Part shown: one piece after another, positions 1,964 to 55,542 of the stretch
How positions within the stretch are numbered: the first letter of the stretch is position 1
How the letters are laid out: each line of letters begins with the position of its first letter
Source of the DNA: Salinimonas lutimaris
Lineage (GTDB): Bacteria; Pseudomonadota; Gammaproteobacteria; Enterobacterales; Alteromonadaceae
Assembly (NCBI RefSeq): GCF_005222225.1
Contig: NZ_CP036536.1
Location: 1,016,001-1,080,000 of the forward strand
Reading direction: 5' to 3'
Length of the DNA: 64,000 bases
Notes under the pieces: generated by a model
Databases searched by the model: none
The model's input: only the letters and a program-made list of their open reading frames with translations
What the model was told of the DNA's origin: nothing
Position numbers and translations under genes: made by a program

Positions 1964-3571
1964 ATGAAAGATTCGAGGCCGGCACGCTGGGCACGACTTG
2001 CACCATGGGCACTTATCTATTTCTTTGTACGACAACTCAAAGAGCTTGCCCAGGGGATGATTTATGCCATTCCCGCACTGGCTGTTAGCGTGTCTGTTTC
2101 TGATTTGTTTAATAATACCTGGCTGATGGCAGGTATAGCCCTGCTGATAATCAGCACATTGACTACCGCTTTTTTGCGTTTCTGGTTTTTCCGATACAGG
2201 GTTTATGAAGAGCAAATTGAAATTCAAAGCGGAGTCGTTGCAAAAACGCATATCAATCTGCCGTTCTGGCGAATTCAAAATATAAAAATAGAGCGGCCCT
2301 GGTATTACCGATTATCGACTTACGCTGTTCTTATTATAGATACCGCAGGTTCAGCCACGGAAGAAGCTACCATAGTTGCCATACCGCAGGCATCTGCGAT
2401 AGCGCTGCGTGATACGGTATCTGCTGTTAAAGCGCAGCATAGCGAAGTGTCTGATTCGCGTTCGACGGACAAAGACACCCATCGCAACATATACTCAAAC
2501 CAAGACCAAGACCAAGACCAAGACCAAAACACGCACGCCAACACTAGCCCAGAGCCCCACATTGCCAATACCGCAGACGTCTTAAATTCACGTACTCTGT
2601 CTGACCTCGTACTGCACGGCATGACAAACAACAGAATTTGGATTTTGTTGGGTGTACTAACGCCATTTTTAGATGACCTTAGCCAGTGGGGAGTCAACTG
2701 GTTGTCACAACATGGCATAGAGCCTGAACAGCTGATACAGAATATGTCGTTGCCCTGGTGGCAATGGGCGGCACTGGTACTTACCGGCGCAAGTTTTATT
2801 ATTGCCCTTCTGATGCTGTTTTCTGTGTGCGGAGCCATACTTACCTATTACGGCTTTACGCTAACCCGTGAAGGAGGGCGGTATATCCGGCGCAGTGGCT
2901 TACTTTCTCAACAGGAAGTGAGCATTCAACGAAGCCGTGTGCAGCGCATAACCATCAGGCAAAGTGCTCTGGATGTTTTGGTAAAAAGAGCGAATGTGAG
3001 TTTTGAGCAAAACAGAAATGGTCAGCGGGATAATAACGAAGGTAGTGCAGCCAGACTCCTGATCCCATCTGTTACATTAGAACAAGCTGCCAGTCTGACG
3101 ACGGATGTCTTAAGCCATGCTCACTCTCTTTATGCATCTTTTTGGAAAATCCATACCGCATTTTTGTTTCACCACTTGCTGATCAGGTTATTTCCGTTAG
3201 CAATTGTTGTGGGTGTCTTGCTAAACGTCAAGCTGCAAAGCTTTCCTACGGCAAGTTTTGTCGTCGGTATTGCCCTGTGTGCCATTCTTATACTGATGCG
3301 CTTTTTGCGATGGGGATATGCGCTTGACCAAGAGTACCTTTACATTCGCAAGGGGTTAATAGGAAAAACCTACCACACTATTCCTTTGTTTAAATTACAG
3401 CAGGTGGCAATGCAGCAAAGCGTCATGATGCGCCGAAAAGGACTGGTTCACTTAAAAATCATTCTTGCCAGTGGTGCCGCCCATATTCCATTTATGGAAC
3501 ATCGCCATGCGCAGTACATCATGGACTATGCGCTTTTCAAGTGTGAATCTGATGCTCGGTCATGGATGTGA
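1964..3571 (+). CDS. YdbT-like protein with repeated bPH2 domains
   Basis: A 535-residue membrane protein that continues the ydbS-like gene after 6 bp. It has several hydrophobic stretches (about residues 40-75, 255-300 and 400-445) alternating with PH-like units; WFFRYRVYEEQIEIQSGVV, YYGFTLTREGGRYIRRSGLL and GYALDQEYLYIRKGLIGKTYHTIP mark three copies of the DUF304 pattern. The loop after the first unit (about residues 160-205) is polar and low-complexity and contains four tandem Gln-Asp pairs encoded by a 6-bp direct repeat. The 3' end overlaps the convergent hydrolase gene by 12 bp. The stretch VVGVLLNV at 3209-3224 happens to contain the dispersed repeat core. Function unknown beyond the family. 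Confidence 0.8.
   Translation: MKDSRPARWARLAPWALIYFFVRQLKELAQGMIYAIPALAVSVSVSDLFNNTWLMAGIALLIISTLTTAFLRFWFFRYRVYEEQIEIQSGVVAKTHINLPFWRIQNIKIERPWYYRLSTYAVLIIDTAGSATEEATIVAIPQASAIALRDTVSAVKAQHSEVSDSRSTDKDTHRNIYSNQDQDQDQDQNTHANTSPEPHIANTADVLNSRTLSDLVLHGMTNNRIWILLGVLTPFLDDLSQWGVNWLSQHGIEPEQLIQNMSLPWWQWAALVLTGASFIIALLMLFSVCGAILTYYGFTLTREGGRYIRRSGLLSQQEVSIQRSRVQRITIRQSALDVLVKRANVSFEQNRNGQRDNNEGSAARLLIPSVTLEQAASLTTDVLSHAHSLYASFWKIHTAFLFHHLLIRLFPLAIVVGVLLNVKLQSFPTASFVVGIALCAILILMRFLRWGYALDQEYLYIRKGLIGKTYHTIPLFKLQQVAMQQSVMMRRKGLVHLKIILASGAAHIPFMEHRHAQYIMDYALFKCESDARSWM
2502..2525 (+). repeat. Hexanucleotide direct repeat (CAAGAC x4) inside ydbT-like gene
   Basis: Four perfect tandem copies of CAAGAC with partial units at both ends encode a (Gln-Asp) run in a linker. 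Because the unit is 6 bp, copy-number change would lengthen or shorten the linker without shifting the frame. Confidence 0.9.
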
Positions 3572-4640: not shown

Positions 4641-4658
4641 AATAATCAGACACCCACG
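4641..4658 (-). repeat. Degenerate copy of the dispersed TGGGTGTCT repeat
   Basis: On the minus strand this reads CGTGGGTGTCTGATTATT, a variant of the window's dispersed core. It sits in the intergenic region 120 bp upstream of the Y1 transposase start. Confidence 0.6.
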
Positions 4659-4777
4659 CTATTTTGAGTTGAAGCGATGGTGCTGCAAAATTGCAGCAAA
4701 ACCCGCCTGTAGGCCAGTTTGATAACATTAAAAAGTTGCCTACCCTGACAGTTATCTTTTGTTATCAGGTGTTTGTT

Positions 4778-8896: not shown

Positions 8897-8935
8897 AGAC
8901 ACCCATTCATTTATTCAATAAATGAGTGGGTGTCT
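8897..8935. repeat. 17-bp-stem hairpin made of inverted dispersed-repeat copies
   Basis: The arms 8897-8913 and 8919-8935 are complementary over 17 bp with one G:T-type mismatch and a 5-nt loop. Each outer arm is the AGACACCCA / TGGGTGTCT core of the dispersed repeat. It lies in the 136-bp gap between acnD and prpF, so the transcript of the operon would carry this stem. There is no T-run of the kind a terminator needs. Confidence 0.85.
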
Positions 8936-8955: not shown

Positions 8956-8971
8956 GTGGGTGTCTTGTTAT
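8956..8971 (+). repeat. Dispersed repeat copy (GTGGGTGTCTTGTTAT)
   Basis: An intact core copy in the acnD-prpF gap, 21 bp to the right of the hairpin. Together with it, three cores lie within 75 bp. Confidence 0.8.
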
Positions 8972-8990: not shown

Positions 8991-11585
8991 CTACTGGGCC
9001 GCCTCGGCTTCCAGAAAGTCCTGGGCAAAGCGCTGCAATACACCACCTGCACTATAGATAGACACTTCCTCAAATGTATCGAGTCGACAGGTGACCGGCA
9101 CGTGCTCTTGTTTCCCGTCTTTTCTGCATACTTTTAACACAAGTTCAGCGCCGGGCGAGGGCGTGCCTTCCACATCGTAGGTTTCAGTGCCATCGAGCTT
9201 CAGGGTGATTCGGGTCGTACCGGGTTTGAATTCCAATGGTAAGACACCCATCCCAATAAGATTGGTCCGGTGTATCCGCTCAAACCCTTCTGCCACAATA
9301 ACCTCAACACCAGCCAGTCTGACGCCCTTGGCCGCCCAGTCACGGGAGGAGCCCTGTCCGTAGTCCGCGCCAGCCACAATAATCAGTGGTTGTTTGCGCT
9401 TCATATAGGTTTCAATCGCATCCCACATACGCATTACTTTACCTTCCGGCTCCAGGCGTGCCAGTGAGCCTTGCTTAACTTCCCCGTCTTCTTTGACCAT
9501 TTCATTGAAAATCTTAGGGTTTGCTAAAGTGGCTCGCTGAGCGGTGAGGTGATCCCCCCGGTGGGTGGCATACGAGTTGTAATCCTCTTCCGGTACGCCC
9601 ATGCTACTCAGGTATTCACCTGCGGCGCTGGTGGCCATAATTGCGTTAGACGGAGACAGATGATCGGTGGTGATATTGTCAGGCAGAATGGCCAGCGGTC
9701 GCATTCCCTGCATAGTGCGTTCGGCCGCCAGAGCGCCTTCCCAGTAGGGAGGACGGCGAATATACGTGCTCATATCACGCCAGTCATACAGCGGATTAAT
9801 ATGCTCTCCGTAGTCCACTGACAAGTCGAACATAGGTTCATAAACTTTGGTGAAATGTTCTGGTTTGACAAAGTTGGCGACAATTTCATCAATTTCCTCA
9901 TCGCTGGGCCATAAATCTTTCAGCGTCACAGGCTGGCCGTCGCTGTCATAACCCAGCGTGTCTTTTTCTATATCAAACCGGATTGTACCGGCGATAGCAT
10001 AGGCTACGACCAGAGCCGGTGAGGCTAAAAATGCCTGCTTAGCAAAAGGATGAATACGTCCGTCAAAGTTGCGGTTGCCAGACAATACCGCTACCGAATA
10101 AAGGTCGCGCTCTTCCAGTTCTTTTTGGATAGCCGGGTCCAGCGCGCCGCTCATTCCGTTACAGGTTGTACAGGCAAATGCGACTATTCCGAAGCCCAGC
10201 TTTTCCAGTTCGGGTAGCAGGTTGGCCTCTTCCAGATACAGTTTCACGGCCTTCGAGCCTGGTGCCAGTGAGGTCTTTACCCATGGCTTTCTGACCAAGC
10301 CCAGTTCATTGGCTTTTTTGGCAAGTAAAGCGGCAGAAATCACATTGCGTGGATTACTGGTATTTGTGCAACTGGTAATGGCCGCAATAATGATAGCGCC
10401 ATCCGGCATCTGGTCGTCATTATGTGATGTGTTACCCAGTAGCCCGTGCTGCGCAAGTTGATTGGTGGGTAAGCGGGCGTGCGGATTGGATGGTCCGGCC
10501 ATGGTCCGCTCTACGCTGCTCAAATCAAACTCGAGCACACGCTCATACTGCACATTGTTTAGTGAATCAGCCCACAGGCCGGTATGTCTGGCGTAGTTTT
10601 CCACCAGTTCCACCTGCTTGGCATCCCGGCCTGTCAGTTTAAGATAGTCGATGGTCTGCTCATCGATATAAAACATGGCGGCCGTAGCCCCGTACTCGGG
10701 AGTCATATTAGAGATGGTGGCACGATCGCCCAATGTAAGGTGCGATGCTCCTTCACCAAAAAATTCCAGGTAGGCAGAAACAACCCGCTCTTTTCTTAAA
10801 AACTCGGTCAGACACAGCACGATATCGGTTGCCGTAACACCGGCAGCCGGTTTGCCAGTTAATCTGACACCCACAATGTCAGGCAGGCGCATGTAAGAGG
10901 CTCTGCCCAGCATAACGCTCTCAGCTTCAAGACCACCCACGCCAACCGCGATTACCCCCAGGGCATCAACGTGTGGCGTATGACTGTCGGTACCGACTAG
11001 CGTATCTGGAAAAGCAATACCGTCTTTGGCATGGACAACCGGCGACATACGTTCCAGGTTTATCTGATGCATGATGCCGTTACCCGGGCCGATGACATCT
11101 ACATTTTTAAACGCGGTCTTGGTCCAGTTAATGAAATGAAATCGATCATCGTTGCGACGATCTTCAATGACGCGATTTTTTTCAAAAGCATCAGGCTCAA
11201 AGCCGGCGTGTTCCACTGCCAGAGAATGATCTACTATAAGCTGTGTGGGAACCACCGGATTGACCTTCGACGGATCGCCTCCTTTCGCCGCGATGGCATC
11301 GCGCAGGCCAGCCAGATCTACCAGCGCGGTTTGCCCCAGAATGTCGTGACAAACCACACGGGCAGGAAACCACGGAAAGTCATGCTCGCGCTTACGATAC
11401 ACAATCTGCTCGAGTGACTGGGTCAGTATTTCAGCAGGACATTTTCGCACGAGATTCTCAGCCAGAACCCGAGAGGTATAGGGCAGAGTGTCATAGCTGT
11501 CAGGGGCAATCGCCTCAATAGCTGCACGGGCATCATAAAACGCCAGCTCACTACCGGGCAGCATTTTTTTGTAATCGTTATTCAT
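8991..11585 (-). CDS. acnD: Fe/S-dependent 2-methylisocitrate dehydratase AcnD
   Basis: An aconitase-superfamily enzyme of 864 residues, the usual AcnD length. The three cluster cysteines are seen as Cys406 in ITSCTNTSNP and Cys472/Cys475 in ACTTCNGMSG; the CTTCNG form distinguishes AcnD from AcnA (usually CQTCIG-like). Other landmarks are VGTDSHTPHVDALG and, in the C-terminal swivel domain, GADYGQGSSRDWAAKG and HRTNLIGMGVLPLEF. It dehydrates 2-methylcitrate to a 2-methylaconitate isomer, which PrpF then isomerises. It sits 29 bp after prpC and before prpF, which supports AcnD over a housekeeping aconitase. Confidence 0.95.
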   Translation of the reverse strand: MNNDYKKMLPGSELAFYDARAAIEAIAPDSYDTLPYTSRVLAENLVRKCPAEILTQSLEQIVYRKREHDFPWFPARVVCHDILGQTALVDLAGLRDAIAAKGGDPSKVNPVVPTQLIVDHSLAVEHAGFEPDAFEKNRVIEDRRNDDRFHFINWTKTAFKNVDVIGPGNGIMHQINLERMSPVVHAKDGIAFPDTLVGTDSHTPHVDALGVIAVGVGGLEAESVMLGRASYMRLPDIVGVRLTGKPAAGVTATDIVLCLTEFLRKERVVSAYLEFFGEGASHLTLGDRATISNMTPEYGATAAMFYIDEQTIDYLKLTGRDAKQVELVENYARHTGLWADSLNNVQYERVLEFDLSSVERTMAGPSNPHARLPTNQLAQHGLLGNTSHNDDQMPDGAIIIAAITSCTNTSNPRNVISAALLAKKANELGLVRKPWVKTSLAPGSKAVKLYLEEANLLPELEKLGFGIVAFACTTCNGMSGALDPAIQKELEERDLYSVAVLSGNRNFDGRIHPFAKQAFLASPALVVAYAIAGTIRFDIEKDTLGYDSDGQPVTLKDLWPSDEEIDEIVANFVKPEHFTKVYEPMFDLSVDYGEHINPLYDWRDMSTYIRRPPYWEGALAAERTMQGMRPLAILPDNITTDHLSPSNAIMATSAAGEYLSSMGVPEEDYNSYATHRGDHLTAQRATLANPKIFNEMVKEDGEVKQGSLARLEPEGKVMRMWDAIETYMKRKQPLIIVAGADYGQGSSRDWAAKGVRLAGVEVIVAEGFERIHRTNLIGMGVLPLEFKPGTTRITLKLDGTETYDVEGTPSPGAELVLKVCRKDGKQEHVPVTCRLDTFEEVSIYSAGGVLQRFAQDFLEAEAAQ

Positions 11586-14544: not shown

Positions 14545-14795
14545 CATGGGTGTCTTGCTATTGTTTTATCATTGTGCGGCGGGCAGACAGTCAAAATGAG
14601 AAAAGAACTAACCTTCATATCATGGTATGACGTCAGGTAGATAAGTGACATGGGTGTCTTACTACTGACTAATCAAAAAACGGTTTGGCAAAAAGTGATG
14701 AGGTGACGGTTTTGTTATGTCGGGCCTATACAGGTTAACTCAGAAACAAGCAGCGTGGGTGTCTTGCTAATAAATAACATGGGTGTCTTTGCAAA
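14545..14795 (+). repeat. Cluster of four dispersed-repeat copies
   Basis: Cores lie at 14545-14561, 14649-14665, 14754-14769 and 14779-14795, all on the plus strand. The first three are spaced 104 and 105 bp apart, but the DNA between them shows no similarity that I can see. The stretch from 14463 to 14826 otherwise holds no gene; it separates the prp operator from a convergent-side gene end. Confidence 0.8.
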
Positions 14796-25244: not shown

Positions 25245-26153
25245 TCATTTTCTGGCACCTTGCAAGCCGCCAGTGTGTAAAATTAACACATTACTGTTTG
25301 TAGAAAATACCTCCTGTTTAAGCATCTCCCTGATACCAAACAGTAACTTACCCGAGTAGACCGGCTCAATGGGCACCTGTAGCTCATCGGTAGTTTGCTG
25401 GCAAAACTGGTAAAGCTGCTCACAGACTTTGGCATAACCACCGCCGTGAAACGCATGCTTAATACGCCAGTTGGAGCGCGACTCTGGCATGAGTGAGCTC
25501 ACCAGGTCTTCTAAATAGCCTTCACCTTTTAATACAGCCACGCCTAGTGCTATCGCCGGTGGTTTAATAGAAGTGGCAATACCGGCTAGAGTTGCGCCAC
25601 TGGCCACCGGGCACACAATATAATCATAGGTTCGGCAGCATTCACTGATAATAGACTGGGTTCCTGTCAGGGCAGCAGATTCGCTGCCGCCTTCGGCGAT
25701 GACGTGATAGCCCGGCCACTGTGAGGAAAGCGAGTTGATATAGTCAGGGTCGGTACGCTGTTTATAGGTGATACGGTTAACATAATGCACGGTCGCACCC
25801 CACGAGTGCAGGTCTCTTAACATGGGTGTCTTGTTATTGTGGTAGTTTCCTCTGACCACAGCAACAAAGGGAAGGTTGAGTTGATGGCACAGATAGCCAA
25901 GAGCATGCAGATGGTTTGAGTACCCGCCACCAAAGCTGATAATACCCTTCGGCAAAGACGTCCACTGGCTGAATATGCCAGACAATTTGCGCCACTTGTT
26001 GCCTGAAATTACAGGGTGAATCAGATCATCTCGCTTTATCCACATTTTTACCCGCTCAGCACCTGGCCATGGGGGGCAGAAAGGTTGTTCAGGGCTCGGC
26101 AGCTGAATGCCAAGCTGGTCACTGATTTGTTGGCTAAGCGGTGAATACGGCAT
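25245..26153 (-). CDS. PLP-dependent ACC deaminase / D-cysteine desulfhydrase family enzyme
   Basis: A fold-type II PLP enzyme of 302 residues. The PLP lysine lies in ISGNKWRKLSGI, the substrate loop in SFGGGYSNHLHALGYL, and the phosphate-binding loop in CPVASGATLAGIA. Family members deaminate 1-aminocyclopropane-1-carboxylate or remove sulfide from D-cysteine; the sequence does not decide between these, and D-cysteine desulfhydrase activity is more usual in gammaproteobacteria. In the middle, NNKTPML is encoded by a perfect 17-bp copy of the window's dispersed repeat at 25821-25837. It is divergent from the chalcone-isomerase-like gene. Confidence 0.83.
   Translation of the reverse strand: MPYSPLSQQISDQLGIQLPSPEQPFCPPWPGAERVKMWIKRDDLIHPVISGNKWRKLSGIFSQWTSLPKGIISFGGGYSNHLHALGYLCHQLNLPFVAVVRGNYHNNKTPMLRDLHSWGATVHYVNRITYKQRTDPDYINSLSSQWPGYHVIAEGGSESAALTGTQSIISECCRTYDYIVCPVASGATLAGIATSIKPPAIALGVAVLKGEGYLEDLVSSLMPESRSNWRIKHAFHGGGYAKVCEQLYQFCQQTTDELQVPIEPVYSGKLLFGIREMLKQEVFSTNSNVLILHTGGLQGARK
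25821..25837 (+). repeat. Perfect dispersed-repeat core inside the PLP enzyme gene
   Basis: CATGGGTGTCTTGTTAT, identical to the majority core of the tandem array at 32.3 kb, lies antisense within the coding region and encodes NNKTPM(L) on the minus strand. The gene's frame is intact. Confidence 0.85.
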
Positions 26154-32040: not shown

Positions 32041-32177
32041 TTTATCTTCTCCTACGAATTACAGTGAAGTTGTATACCTGTAAGGTCAGGACTTTGATCG
32101 CTATAAAAAGCAAACAAAGATGAGTTACTTGTGAGTAAGACCAGTGCATCTGTCTGGCAGGTGCTATCGATAACAAC

Positions 32178-32230
32178 GATAACAAGACACCCATCGAGTT
32201 TTACCAGAGCCAATGCATAGACACCCACAG
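32178..32230 (-). repeat. Inverted dispersed-repeat copies facing the tandem array
   Basis: 32178-32194 is the exact reverse complement of ATGGGTGTCTTGTTATC, the array core; 32219-32230 is a second, shorter inverted match (AGACACCCACAG). They lie 110 bp to the left of the array and in the opposite orientation. Confidence 0.8.
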
Positions 32231-32302
32231 TAAAAAGCGTACTGCCAGACACTCACAGACCGTAAAAACTGCCTGACACTGAGTATCGAACACGGAGCGA
32301 TG

Positions 32303-32648
32303 CATGGGTGCTTGTTATCAGGGAGGCCGGCTAGCATGGATGTCTTGTTATCAGGGAGCCCGGCTAGCATGGGTGACTTGTTATGAGGGAGGCTGGGTAG
32401 CATGGGTGTCTTGTTATGAGGGAGGCTGGCTAGCATGGGTGTCTTGTTATGAGGGAGGCCGGCTAGCATGGGTGTCTTGTTATGAGGGAGGCCGGCTAGC
32501 ATGGGTGTCTTGTTATCAGGGAGGCTGGATAGCATGGGTGTCTTGATATCAGGGAGGCTGGGTAGCATGGGTGTCTTGTTATGAGGGAGGCTGGGTAGCA
32601 TGGGTGTCTTGTTATGAGTCAGGCCGGATAGCATGGGTGTCTTACTAT
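32303..32648 (+). repeat. 33-bp tandem array, eleven cores of the dispersed repeat
   Basis: Cores of 17 bp (majority CATGGGTGTCTTGTTAT) start at 32303, 32335, 32368, 32401, 32434, 32467, 32500, 32533, 32566, 32599 and 32632. The ten gaps are 16 bp with a conserved pattern of the type CAGGGAGGCYGGCTAG, so the period is 33 bp; only the first unit is 32 bp because one T is missing in its core. Cores differ at one or two bases and spacers at a few. The last core decays into unique sequence. Because the period is a multiple of three, frames stay open on both strands, but composition and lack of a ribosome site argue against coding. Confidence 0.95.
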
Positions 32649-32923
32649 TTAATGGTCGGAGGGCTGTAAAATGGGGAGTATGGGGCGGTGGATTATGCTA
32701 TTATCGTGAAAGATTGGTGACAAAAAATAAAAACAATTCAAAATCAATCTGTTAGATGCTTTGTGTTGTACGCTTCGGCTGCGCAAATTAAGCACTATCC
32801 TAGCGACAGAAAAATAAAATTATAAACCGGTGCAGGCGTAAGCCTGACAGGCAGCATGCTGTGTATACAAAAAATGTGGTGTGCTGTCTGAATTATCTCC
32901 TGTGAATAAATAGATCAATGCGG
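32649..32923. other. Non-coding stretch between the array and the thr promoter
   Basis: AT-rich DNA with no ORF that I can support. Small inverted repeats are visible near 32831-32845 (CAGGCGTAAGCCTG) and 32851-32862 (GCAGCATGCTGT). It may hold upstream control sites for the thr operon. Confidence 0.5.
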
Positions 32924-32958: not shown

Positions 32959-33027
32959 ATGAAAACGATTATTCGCACCACCGGCATGATTATGATTACC
33001 ACCTCTTTGAGGGCGGTCGCTGGTTAG
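32959..33027 (+). CDS. thrL: thr operon leader peptide ThrL
   Basis: A 22-residue peptide, MKTIIRTTGMIMITTSLRAV plus AG, too short for ordinary ORF lists. It holds five Thr and four Ile codons, mostly clustered as ACG-ATT-ATT, ACC-ACC and ATT-ACC-ACC. It lies 114 bp before thrA and is followed by a terminator whose 5' arm can pair alternatively with DNA overlapping the peptide's end. This is the standard layout of ribosome-mediated attenuation by threonyl- and isoleucyl-tRNA supply, as in E. coli, although the peptide sequence differs. Confidence 0.88.
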   Translation: MKTIIRTTGMIMITTSLRAVAG

Positions 33028-33085
33028 TGCATGTTTATCACAGATACCAAGAAACCCGCCCTCACTGAGGAGCGGGTTTTTTTTT
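33009..33085 (+). terminator. thr operon attenuator with competing antiterminator
   Basis: The terminator stem pairs 33052-33062 (AAACCCGCCCT) with 33068-33079 (AGG, a bulged A, GCGGGTTT) and runs into nine T. GAGGGCGG at 33009-33016, inside the last codons of thrL, is perfectly complementary to CCGCCCTC at 33056-33063 and so competes with the terminator. A ribosome stalled at the Thr/Ile codons would leave 33009-33016 free to form the antiterminator. Confidence 0.88.
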
Positions 33086-33141
33086 AAGTTTAATCTGTAA
33101 ATCATTGATGCAGTAAATGTCGAATCAATAAGGAGCAACAA

Positions 33142-42825: not shown

Positions 42826-43455
42826 ATGTATACCCTTTATGGATTTCCCGGCACCCGGTCATTGCGGGTGGTCTGGGCGCTCGAAGAGATGGGCCTGCCG
42901 TACGAGTATAAGGTGGTGAACCTGCTTAAAGGTGAACATCGCGAGGCCGCCTACAAAGCCCTGACCCCCACATCGAAAGTGCCGCTGCTGGTAGGCCATG
43001 GCCTGAGCATGACCGAATCGTCTGCCATTTTGTGTCAACTGGCCGACACCCACGGTTATCAGGAATTTATTCCGGCTGTAGCAACACCCGAACGAGCCAG
43101 CTTTGAGCAGGCCATGTTCTTTTTAGCCACAGAATTGGAGCAGCCACTGTGGTCGATGGTAAAGCATTCTTTTGCTTTACCTGAAGCTTACCGGCTGGCC
43201 GGCATGAAAGACTGCGGCACTTATGAGTATCAGCATGCCCTTGAGGTGTTTGCCAATACTCTGGGAGACAACGAGTTTGTGGTGGGTAATATGTTTACCG
43301 TGGCGGATATTCTGGCCGGCCACACACTGATGTGGGCCCGTGAAGCCGGACAGGAACTGCTGCATGATAATGTCCGCAATTATTGCGCACGCCTGGAGGC
43401 CCGTGATGCATTTGCAGCGGCAAAGCGGTGTGAAGACAGTTACAAACCTGGCTAA
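42826..43455 (+). CDS. Glutathione S-transferase family protein
   Basis: A 209-residue protein from the ATG at 42826, which follows a full AGGAGG site; a longer frame to 42805 lies across that site. The N-terminal thioredoxin-like domain reads YTLYGFPGTRSLRVVWALEEMGLPY, then KVPLLVGHGLSMTESSAILC with the Glu-Ser pair that binds glutathione. The C-terminal helical domain has NTLGDNEFVVGNMFTVADILAGHTL, the N-capping/hydrophobic staple region. The substrate is unknown. Next to yaaA it may share a role in oxidative stress. Confidence 0.88.
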   Translation: MYTLYGFPGTRSLRVVWALEEMGLPYEYKVVNLLKGEHREAAYKALTPTSKVPLLVGHGLSMTESSAILCQLADTHGYQEFIPAVATPERASFEQAMFFLATELEQPLWSMVKHSFALPEAYRLAGMKDCGTYEYQHALEVFANTLGDNEFVVGNMFTVADILAGHTLMWAREAGQELLHDNVRNYCARLEARDAFAAAKRCEDSYKPG

Positions 43456-54417: not shown

Positions 54418-55542
54418 ATGGCACATAATATTGTTGTTAGCGGCGTGGGTGTCTGGAACCCTGATTACACGATTACCAACGAGGAGCTGGTCGCCAGCTA
54501 TAATGCCTATGCAGATGCCTATAATGCACAGCATCAGGCGCAGATTGAGGCCGGTGAGCTAGACCCTAAACCGCACTCCAGCGCAGAATTTATTGAAAAA
54601 GCCTCAGGCATTAAGCAGCGTTATATTTATCGCAAAGAAGGCGCACTGGAGCTGGATCGGATGCGCCCGAAAATTCCCGAGCGTGCCGACAACGAAGTAT
54701 CTGACCAGGCTCAGATTGCGATTGAAGCCGCCAAAAAAGCACTTAAAGAAGCCAACAAATCCGCAGCCGATGTCGATGCTGTGATTGTATCGTGCGCCTA
54801 CACCCAGCGATCATATCCAGCCATTGCTATTGAAGTTCAGCAGGAACTGGGCATTGATGGATTTGGTTTTGACATGCTGGTGGCCTGTTCGGCGGCTACA
54901 TTTGGTATGCACCGGGCCTATGAAATGATTGCAGCGGGTAATGCAGGTTGTGTACTGGTTATTAATCCGGAGCTGGTGTCTCCACAGGTCAATTATACCG
55001 ACCGCGACAGCCACTTTATTTTTGGTGATGTGGCTACCGCCACCGTGCTGGAAAAAGCCGAAACGGCCACAGCTGAGCATGTGTATGATGTGCTGAGCAC
55101 CAAGGCGTTAACCAAGTTTTCTAATAATATCCGTTCCAACTTCGGCTATATCAGTCGTGCTACGGACGCTGATCCGTACGGGGCAGATAAGCTGTTTCAT
55201 CAGGCGGGTCGCAAGGTGTTTAAGGAAGTGTGTCCGATGGCCGCCGAGCATATTGAAAACCATCTTAAACAGCATGATCTGGGGGCTGCGGATGTGGCGC
55301 GCTGGTGGTTACATCAGGCCAACATTAATATGAACTTATTGATCTGCAAACGATTGCTGGGCCGCGAAGCCAGTCAGCAGGAAGCGCCGATTGTGCTGGA
55401 TGAATATGCTAATACCGCCTCTGCCGGGTCGGTGATTGCGTTTGGTCTGCATCATAAGGACCTAACCGCCGGGGATGTGGGCGTACTGTGTTCGTTCGGG
55501 GCGGGTTACTCTATCGGCAGTCTGGTGCTGAAAAAGCGCTGA
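54418..55542 (+). CDS. Beta-ketoacyl-ACP synthase III family enzyme
   Basis: A 374-residue thiolase-fold condensing enzyme from the ATG at 54418; in-frame starts at 54382 and 54403 are possible but add nothing conserved. The catalytic Cys lies in DMLVACSAATFGMHRAYEM (near residue 157), His in RWWLHQANINMN and Asn in EYANTASAGSVIAFG, so the full Cys-His-Asn triad is intact. It has an insertion after the first helix compared with short FabH, like the longer KASIII group of gammaproteobacteria. It may start fatty acid synthesis or condense other acyl groups. It precedes prsK by 33 bp. Confidence 0.86.
   Translation: MAHNIVVSGVGVWNPDYTITNEELVASYNAYADAYNAQHQAQIEAGELDPKPHSSAEFIEKASGIKQRYIYRKEGALELDRMRPKIPERADNEVSDQAQIAIEAAKKALKEANKSAADVDAVIVSCAYTQRSYPAIAIEVQQELGIDGFGFDMLVACSAATFGMHRAYEMIAAGNAGCVLVINPELVSPQVNYTDRDSHFIFGDVATATVLEKAETATAEHVYDVLSTKALTKFSNNIRSNFGYISRATDADPYGADKLFHQAGRKVFKEVCPMAAEHIENHLKQHDLGAADVARWWLHQANINMNLLICKRLLGREASQQEAPIVLDEYANTASAGSVIAFGLHHKDLTAGDVGVLCSFGAGYSIGSLVLKKR

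Follow-up and report, generated by a model that had tools for sequence, protein, structure and literature searches.

The stretch of DNA analysed here, called the window throughout, comprises 64,000 nucleotides (1016001–1080000) of the 4.12-Mb genome of Salinimonas lutimaris. It carries a tandem array of 33-bp units next to the thr operon and, 27 kb away, the gene of a RAYT, a HUH tyrosine transposase, together with scattered short sites of the sequence RTGGGTGTC (Table 1). We consider it likely that the array is an amplified cluster of these sites near the RAYT gene and that the sites serve as a single-stranded DNA substrate, nicked and rejoined by this RAYT mainly in the neighbourhood of its own gene.

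The tandem array and its core

The array announced by the original prediction was recovered by Tandem Repeats Finder (period 33, 10.4 copies, 92% matches, 0% indels). Its eleven cores span 32304–32649, the first being one base short (GGGTG-CTTG) and the last degenerate. Among the nine complete units the core half (first 16 positions) is nearly constant, with three variable positions and one change each, and most changes fall in the spacer half, in which six of the other 17 positions vary with 15 changes. Two minus-strand sites precede the eleven plus-strand sites, the same divergent layout as at RAYT genes. With up to three mismatches the core ATGGGTGTCTTGTTATC is matched 17 times in the window, compared to a mean of 0.16 and a maximum of 1 after shuffling. 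Regular repeats and short spacers are shared with CRISPR arrays; the spacers of a CRISPR, however, are unique, whereas those of the array are nearly identical, which bears out the earlier exclusion of a CRISPR.

An open reading frame (ORF) of 156 amino acids on the minus strand (32164–32634) is open across the array and would give a coding repeat with a period of 11 residues. A 33-bp period, however, keeps a frame open without selection, and sister arrays have periods that are not divisible by 3. The ratio of synonymous to non-synonymous changes between units is 1:17 in this frame and 0:18 in the other long-open one, in agreement with the earlier view that the array is not coding; there is hardly any chance that it is.

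That the array is a local amplification of a dispersed unit was likewise confirmed, the core occurring at other places of the window, alone or a few copies together. In the source genome RTGGGTGTCYDDTTA (up to one mismatch) has 78 sites compared to 13 for the reversed pattern, and the extended core RTGGGTGTCTNNNTA has 44 compared to 1. Groups of core sites lie at 945, 950, 1007, 1015, 1019–1026, 1030, 1042, 1048, 1797–1810, 1828 and 1845 kb. Since RTGGGTGTC is common to these clusters whereas spacers and spacings (33, 55, 38/48, 45 and 19 bp) differ from one to the next, the 9-bp core looks like the unit and the 33-bp period like a local accident. The proposed placement of a bound protein on one face of the helix found no support, as the same core format is spaced by 19, 27, 37–38, 45, 48, 50 and 55 bp elsewhere; 33 bp recurs in genomes G009 and G032, yet is no conserved period. 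Genomes of the same genus also hold clusters, mostly in one or a few stretches of tens of kb. A comparison of nucleotide synteny between the cluster regions of different species gave one match above 150 bp, which is 170 bp long and lies within the RAYT gene.

The RAYT protein

What the original prediction overlooked is the RAYT as a partner of the sites, and that the sites follow the RAYT gene from genome to genome. The start of the gene was set by alignment, the open frame beginning at 4691. The protein contains H71-x-H73, R163, W165-E166 and Y186-x-D-L-N-P, and its fold matches that of E. coli TnpAREP (4er8). N70-H71-x-H73 and Y186-x-D-L-N-P are invariant in 15 homologues. In a set of 138 homologous proteins, from orders including Alteromonadales and Chromatiales, W-E is present in 138, Y-x-D-L-N-P in 137 and YVDLNP in 133 (YIDLNP in the window), and the HuH motif reads NHTH in 83 and NHYH in 17 (NHFH in the window). 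Family models score the window RAYT below their cut-offs (NCBIfam NF047646: E 7.4e-9, 35.6 bits, cut-off 80; Pfam Y1_Tnp: 20.2, cut-off 23). The only Y1_Tnp match of the source genome, at 4026835, is away from the clusters, the cluster-associated RAYTs scoring below cut-off. A sequence search of the PDB with the window RAYT gave no meaningful match (best E 0.063).

Subclass 2.3 of TnpAY1 was described by W-E, YVDLNP, the HuH motif NHYH, a median of 325 amino acids and its occurrence in Chromatiales and Alteromonadales; it is one of the larger subclasses, and the survey detected no repeat associated with it (Quentin et al. 2018, PMC6006769). Set against this description, the window protein resembles subclass 2.3 by motifs and length: about 325 amino acids, N-H-x-H, W-E, Y-V/I-D-L-N-P and the same orders. 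Several copies per genome and the lack of a palindromic REP at the gene are further common traits. The two differ in the RTGNNTGTC repeats found here around the gene of each lineage, and perhaps in the third HuH letter, published as Tyr and here Thr in most of the 138 proteins. RAYT copies number 9 in the source genome, 18 in G025 and 36 in G057. At E 1e-10, 7371 of 8000 scored candidates are homologues. On plasmids a relative (E 1e-20) was found in 13 of 72,556 records, 7 of them from Pseudoalteromonas.

One word per RAYT lineage

Around 60 RAYT copies, chosen by the gene alone among the matches listed, 8-mers were ranked within ±10 kb. In 42 of 51 same-genus loci the top 8-mer is, by our reading, TGGGTGTC, TGACTGTC, TGCCTGTC, GTGTCTGT, TGAGTGTC or an 8-mer overlapping with these. 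The words share the format RTG-NN-TGTC, with NN set by the RAYT lineage as GG, AC, CC, TC or AG. One RTGNNTGTC word occurs at least five times in 45 of the 51 loci, the reversed word in 0 of 51. The same holds for 28 of 80 GTDB loci (Alteromonas, Salinimonas, Ferrimonas, Colwellia, Shewanella, Marinomonas, Pseudoalteromonas and others), a set partly overlapping with the first one (e.g. L181, L182, L209, L213), and for none with the reversed control. Mapped onto a tree of 65 RAYTs, the NN class requires 8 changes compared to 27.1 with shuffled labels, this being a quick tree with several long branches, among them that of the window RAYT.

Some loci show other or additional words. The AC word AGTGACTGTCC forms two further tandem arrays in the source genome (2554743–2555023 and 2586058–2586668, steps of 27 and 50 bp). 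At 1868602–1868992 (L041, 18600–19000) GG and AC words are mixed, with ATGGGTGTCTGTGCGCGAT in 19-bp steps and AGTGACTGTCC; this patch is possibly a relic or a zone common to two enzymes. Outside the genus, TGGGTGGC / GCCACCCA are enriched at the RAYT loci L192, L215 and L235, so that variation may extend to the final bases of the word. None of the RTGNNTGTC words is enriched in the four G057 loci examined (L175, L176, L178, L179); the word of these RAYTs may differ. The 8-mers TCCCCTAG / CCTAGGGG, found 8–12 times near L126, L160, L167, L168 and L169, mostly with TC-class RAYTs, suggest a separate palindromic repeat.

Sites concentrate around RAYT genes

The class of a RAYT is our own assignment, and proximity was counted for the GG and TC classes. 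In the source genome each of the 44 RTGGGTGTCTNNNTA sites (44/44) has one of the three GG-class RAYTs, that of the window included, at a distance of at most 50 kb. Five other genomes gave 19/19, 23/23, 24/25, 7/7 and 11/16. For AGTGTCTGTCC and TC-class RAYTs the counts are 33/34, 35/36, 18/20 and 27/31. From site to RAYT the median distance amounts to some 14 kb for GG and some 10 kb for TC. Left out were G027 for GG (16 of 28 sites listed) and G018 for TC (18 of 21 listed); G018 has no GG site. The pattern recurs in all seven genomes counted, and where the RAYT lies elsewhere the sites lie elsewhere as well. Three genomes without a TC-class RAYT have 7, 3 and 1 TC-type sites; two of their RAYTs are unclassified, and 2 of the 3 TC-type sites of G009 lie within 40 kb of an unclassified RAYT. 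Six same-genus genomes without any RAYT show no motif excess (13 matches compared to 10 for the control).

Two local observations may be added. The RAYTs at G009 2627082 and G028 1581760 have AC-word sites nearby, in G009 also TC-word sites. A GG cluster of G028 (2636943–2637091, L089) lies about 100 kb from the nearest GG-class RAYT and may mark a lost RAYT gene.

Residue 163 and the NN bases

Class and residue were compared after dropping six loci with two RAYTs, ORFs below 280 amino acids and identical proteins. Ranked by normalised mutual information, the best separator of the NN classes is residue 163, which lies two positions ahead of the W of W-E: Arg in 36/36 GG, His in 11/11 AC and 10/10 CC, Tyr in 5/5 TC and Cys in the single GC protein. 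On the RAYT tree L158 (CC, His) is nested as the sister of L170 (GG, Arg). In 73 loci with weak or mixed words R163 goes with 105 GG sites compared to 40 AC and CC sites, H163 with 5 compared to 82; the reversed words gave 14 and 14 (R163) and 3 and 5 (H163). The Fisher P value of 1e-25 is too strong, since loci are related and sites clustered. In E. coli TnpAREP the residues touching GTAG are located in beta-1, around beta-4 and at the C-terminal end, according to passages of PMC8266576. Since W165-E166 corresponds by motif to the beta-4 region, it is plausible that residue 163 reads NN.

Arrangement of the sites and rival explanations

The sites mostly bracket the RAYT gene in inverted orientation: of 97 upstream sites 75 lie on the strand opposite to the gene, and of 50 downstream sites 41 share its strand. 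Neighbouring sites within clusters are divergent in 60 and convergent in 14 cases; the list of orientation classes includes nine loci picked because they held clusters. Such bracketing is also expected if the RAYT gene and its inverted sites form a mobile unit similar to a TIRtron, the scattered sites being relics of ends or of partial copies. Flanking inverted repeats are known for the related TIRYT/subclass 2.1, and the multiple RAYT copies per genome given above point in the same direction. Further, two AC-class RAYTs of the source genome, 1588472 (L121) and 2528281 (L125), are near identical on the tree (end branches 0.015 and 0.006), which means that gene copies do arise. However, many clusters of several sites, spaced by 17–150 bp, contain no RAYT gene, and the sites stay close to a resident gene, at distances of tens of kb, instead of occurring genome-wide. 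We therefore regard a mobile unit as unlikely.

No palindrome appears in the logos of the word classes, and the arms between divergent cores match by 37–46% beside the core and 19–40% further in. REP-like extended hairpins were considered and rejected: 30 divergent pairs spaced by at most 40 bp contained one full case (8898–8934, 9/9) and two partial ones (L147 and L078, 7/10).

Class-matched sites avoid genes, with 146 of 490 inside ORFs of at least 100 amino acids, which cover 82% of the DNA, and 344 outside. This distribution, the short conserved core and the few chromosomal regions per word class would also suit binding sites of a chromosome-organising or regulatory protein (similar to parS, matS or a regulator). 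Such a function seems very improbable, as the site region changes between species and follows the RAYT gene, and as several words occur in one genome, each concentrated at different RAYTs. Furthermore, dif lies at 2.066 Mb and the array at 1.048 Mb; a terminus or macrodomain system was rejected, dif (2065959) not matching the clusters.

Some sites do sit inside genes. About 17 kb from the RAYT of G008 a membrane-protein-like ORF, 461–471 amino acids long in four species (L083 8835–10247 and its orthologues in L077, L079 and L081), contains a KTP-rich insert at RTGGGTGTC sites. The orthologues of two further species (L074 and L088, 404 amino acids) lack this insert and are 57–67 residues shorter.

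Orthologous clusters of related species differ by whole units, as seen from a 32-bp and an 18-bp gap with one core each. A number of the indels seen between related species amount to plain tandem duplications one unit long, and 34 of 42 do not contain the core. Replication slippage or recombination alone could thus have grown the arrays from a word prone to it, the RAYT merely sitting among these words or using them. Passages of PMC8049555, which put local REPIN copy change probably on replication, are in line with this. Slippage leaves unexplained, however, why the words are found near RAYTs, why NN follows the lineage and why it matches residue 163; it is plausible for the step of tandem growth only, and as the whole explanation we hold it to be improbable.

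Several points weigh against a RAYT acting on its own sites. Binding and cutting of the sites are inferred from sequence. Only 8 of the 42 indels of at least 10 bp between related loci contain a core; array growth could proceed by plain slippage, which is quite possible for the last step, and local REPIN amplification was attributed probably to the host replication machinery in the passages just cited. Five copies are reached by no RTGNNTGTC word in 6 of the 51 same-genus loci and 52 of the 80 GTDB loci, and by none in the nine loci that belong to other families of the order (0/9). Outside the genus the association is, because of these GTDB and other-family loci, weak or the word different. 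In G028, 5 of 16 GG sites are more than 50 kb away from any GG-class RAYT, and as the sites are clustered, binomial P values for RAYT proximity overstate the evidence. Residue 163 and NN both follow phylogeny, leaving three well-supported independent pairs (5–6 on all branches), which agree in 2.9 of 3 on average and are too few for significance. By plain purity column 163 (0.82) is only slightly above other variable columns (0.78), and the two AG loci are split, one having His and one Arg.

Further features of the window

Table 1. Array, RAYT gene and RTGGGTGTC sites in the window.
Feature	Position	Strand	Remark
RTGGGTGTC site	3209..3217	+	followed by TTGCTA; inside ORF 1964–3571
RTGGGTGTC site	4649..4657	-	strand opposite to the RAYT, 120 bp before its start; similar in most copies
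RAYT, TnpAY1 subclass 2.3-like HUH tyrosine transposase, 329 amino acids	4778..5767 (stop included)	+	predicted cognate enzyme of the sites
Site, left half of divergent pair	8898..8906	-	inner arms palindromic (9/9 inner positions match)
Site, right half of divergent pair	8926..8934	+	pair 8898–8934
Site	8956..8964	+	
Site in ORF	9243..9251	-	without NNNTA extension
Intergenic cluster of four, site 1	14546..14554	+	
Intergenic cluster of four, site 2	14650..14658	+	
Intergenic cluster of four, site 3	14755..14763	+	
Intergenic cluster of four, site 4	14779..14787	+	without NNNTA extension
Single site	25822..25830	+	in ORF of the other strand (25245–26153)
Inverted RTGGGTGTC site left of array	32186..32194	-	divergent arrangement
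Second inverted RTGGGTGTC site left of array	32220..32228	-	
33-bp tandem array	32302..32643	+	core RTGGGTGTCTTGTTAT and 17-bp spacer; Tandem Repeats Finder

Four more RTGGGTGTC 9-mers of the window (2474–2482, 10866–10874, 43045–43053, 54445–54453) are located in ORFs without the TA extension and were taken as chance. The thr operon next to the array looks incidental, since the 1.1 kb upstream of thrA contain no RTGGGTGTC in 19 of 20 same-genus relatives and a single site in one; an array is found there in none of the 20. Upstream of thrA, window 32959–33086 encodes a Thr/Ile-rich leader peptide, MKTIIRTTGMIMITTSLRAVAG, followed by a GC-rich hairpin and a T-run. By these features it is likely a thr attenuator; Rfam gave no match there, nor at gathering threshold in the whole window. 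Phage relatives of 32150–32700 were not found. As read from the ORFs, the RAYTs are neighboured by propionate-type catabolic genes in the window and by acyl-CoA catabolic genes in G008 and G009, with sites around each.

Proposed mechanism

In the mechanism that we favour, the RAYT would bind the single-stranded form of its site by way of RTGNN, which corresponds to the REP guide GTAG, with residue 163 as the candidate reader of NN. Cleavage by the HUH motif and the tyrosine, followed by strand transfer, would seed new sites nearby, provided that the enzyme prefers DNA near its own gene. Such a preference is a trait of cis-acting bacterial transposases. Unequal strand transfer or slippage during replication may then turn the seeded sites into tandem arrays, and the 33-bp unit would be the core with the spacer caught in the first duplication.

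A bolder version, to which we give slightly less than even chances, regards the whole RAYT branch of TnpAY1 subclass 2.3 as cis-acting enzymes with "territories". Each enzyme would multiply its own RTG-NN-TGTC within about 50 kb around its gene, a code at residue 163 (Arg for GG, His for AC/CC, Tyr for TC) setting the word. Paralogues would thereby keep largely separate repeats and also build arrays inside genes, lengthening proteins. The probabilities given to the rival explanations overlap with that of the favoured one and need not add up to one.

Comparison with known systems and significance

Similar to REP/REPIN sequences and their RAYTs (E. coli TnpAREP, 4er8; Corneloup et al. 2021, PMC8266576), the gene of a HUH-Tyr enzyme of matching fold is flanked by repeats that occur in inverted pairs and tandem clusters and have a GT[AG]G-like start (GTGG in the GG class). 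In contrast, the core described here is non-palindromic without a hairpin after GT[AG]G, its fourth and fifth bases vary by lineage, and its sites are located within about 50 kb of the gene, whereas REPs spread genome-wide. TIRtrons of the TIRYT/subclass 2.1 (Di Nocera et al. 2013, PMC3733652) are, according to passages of that work, also bracketed by non-REP inverted repeats with a G-rich core around a Y1 transposase gene. Their consensus is given there as GGGGWSAS, compared to RTGNNTGTC (TGGGTGTC or other NN forms) here, and these passages mention no territory around the gene. Besides PMC6006769 no account of subclass 2.3 repeats was found in a literature search outside of which most subscription journals and preprints lie; a text search for six motif strings gave, among the matches listed, titles unrelated to bacterial repeats.

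The best reading of the sequence comparisons is that the RTGNNTGTC sites are the missing cognate sites of subclass 2.3-like RAYTs. They constitute a real, unannotated repeat system, strongly linked to the enzyme at the level of sequence, which appears to close the gap left for this known subclass. Several lineages thereby obtain a concrete word, and a candidate residue for specificity and a very large natural supply of homologues become available. Three questions become open to test, in vitro and by comparing genomes: the choice of sites by RAYTs where no hairpin exists, the multiplication of short repeats, and the possible confinement of a bacterial transposase to the surroundings of its gene. 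Further, the system could explain unannotated tandem arrays in marine gammaproteobacteria as well as low-complexity inserts in their proteins.
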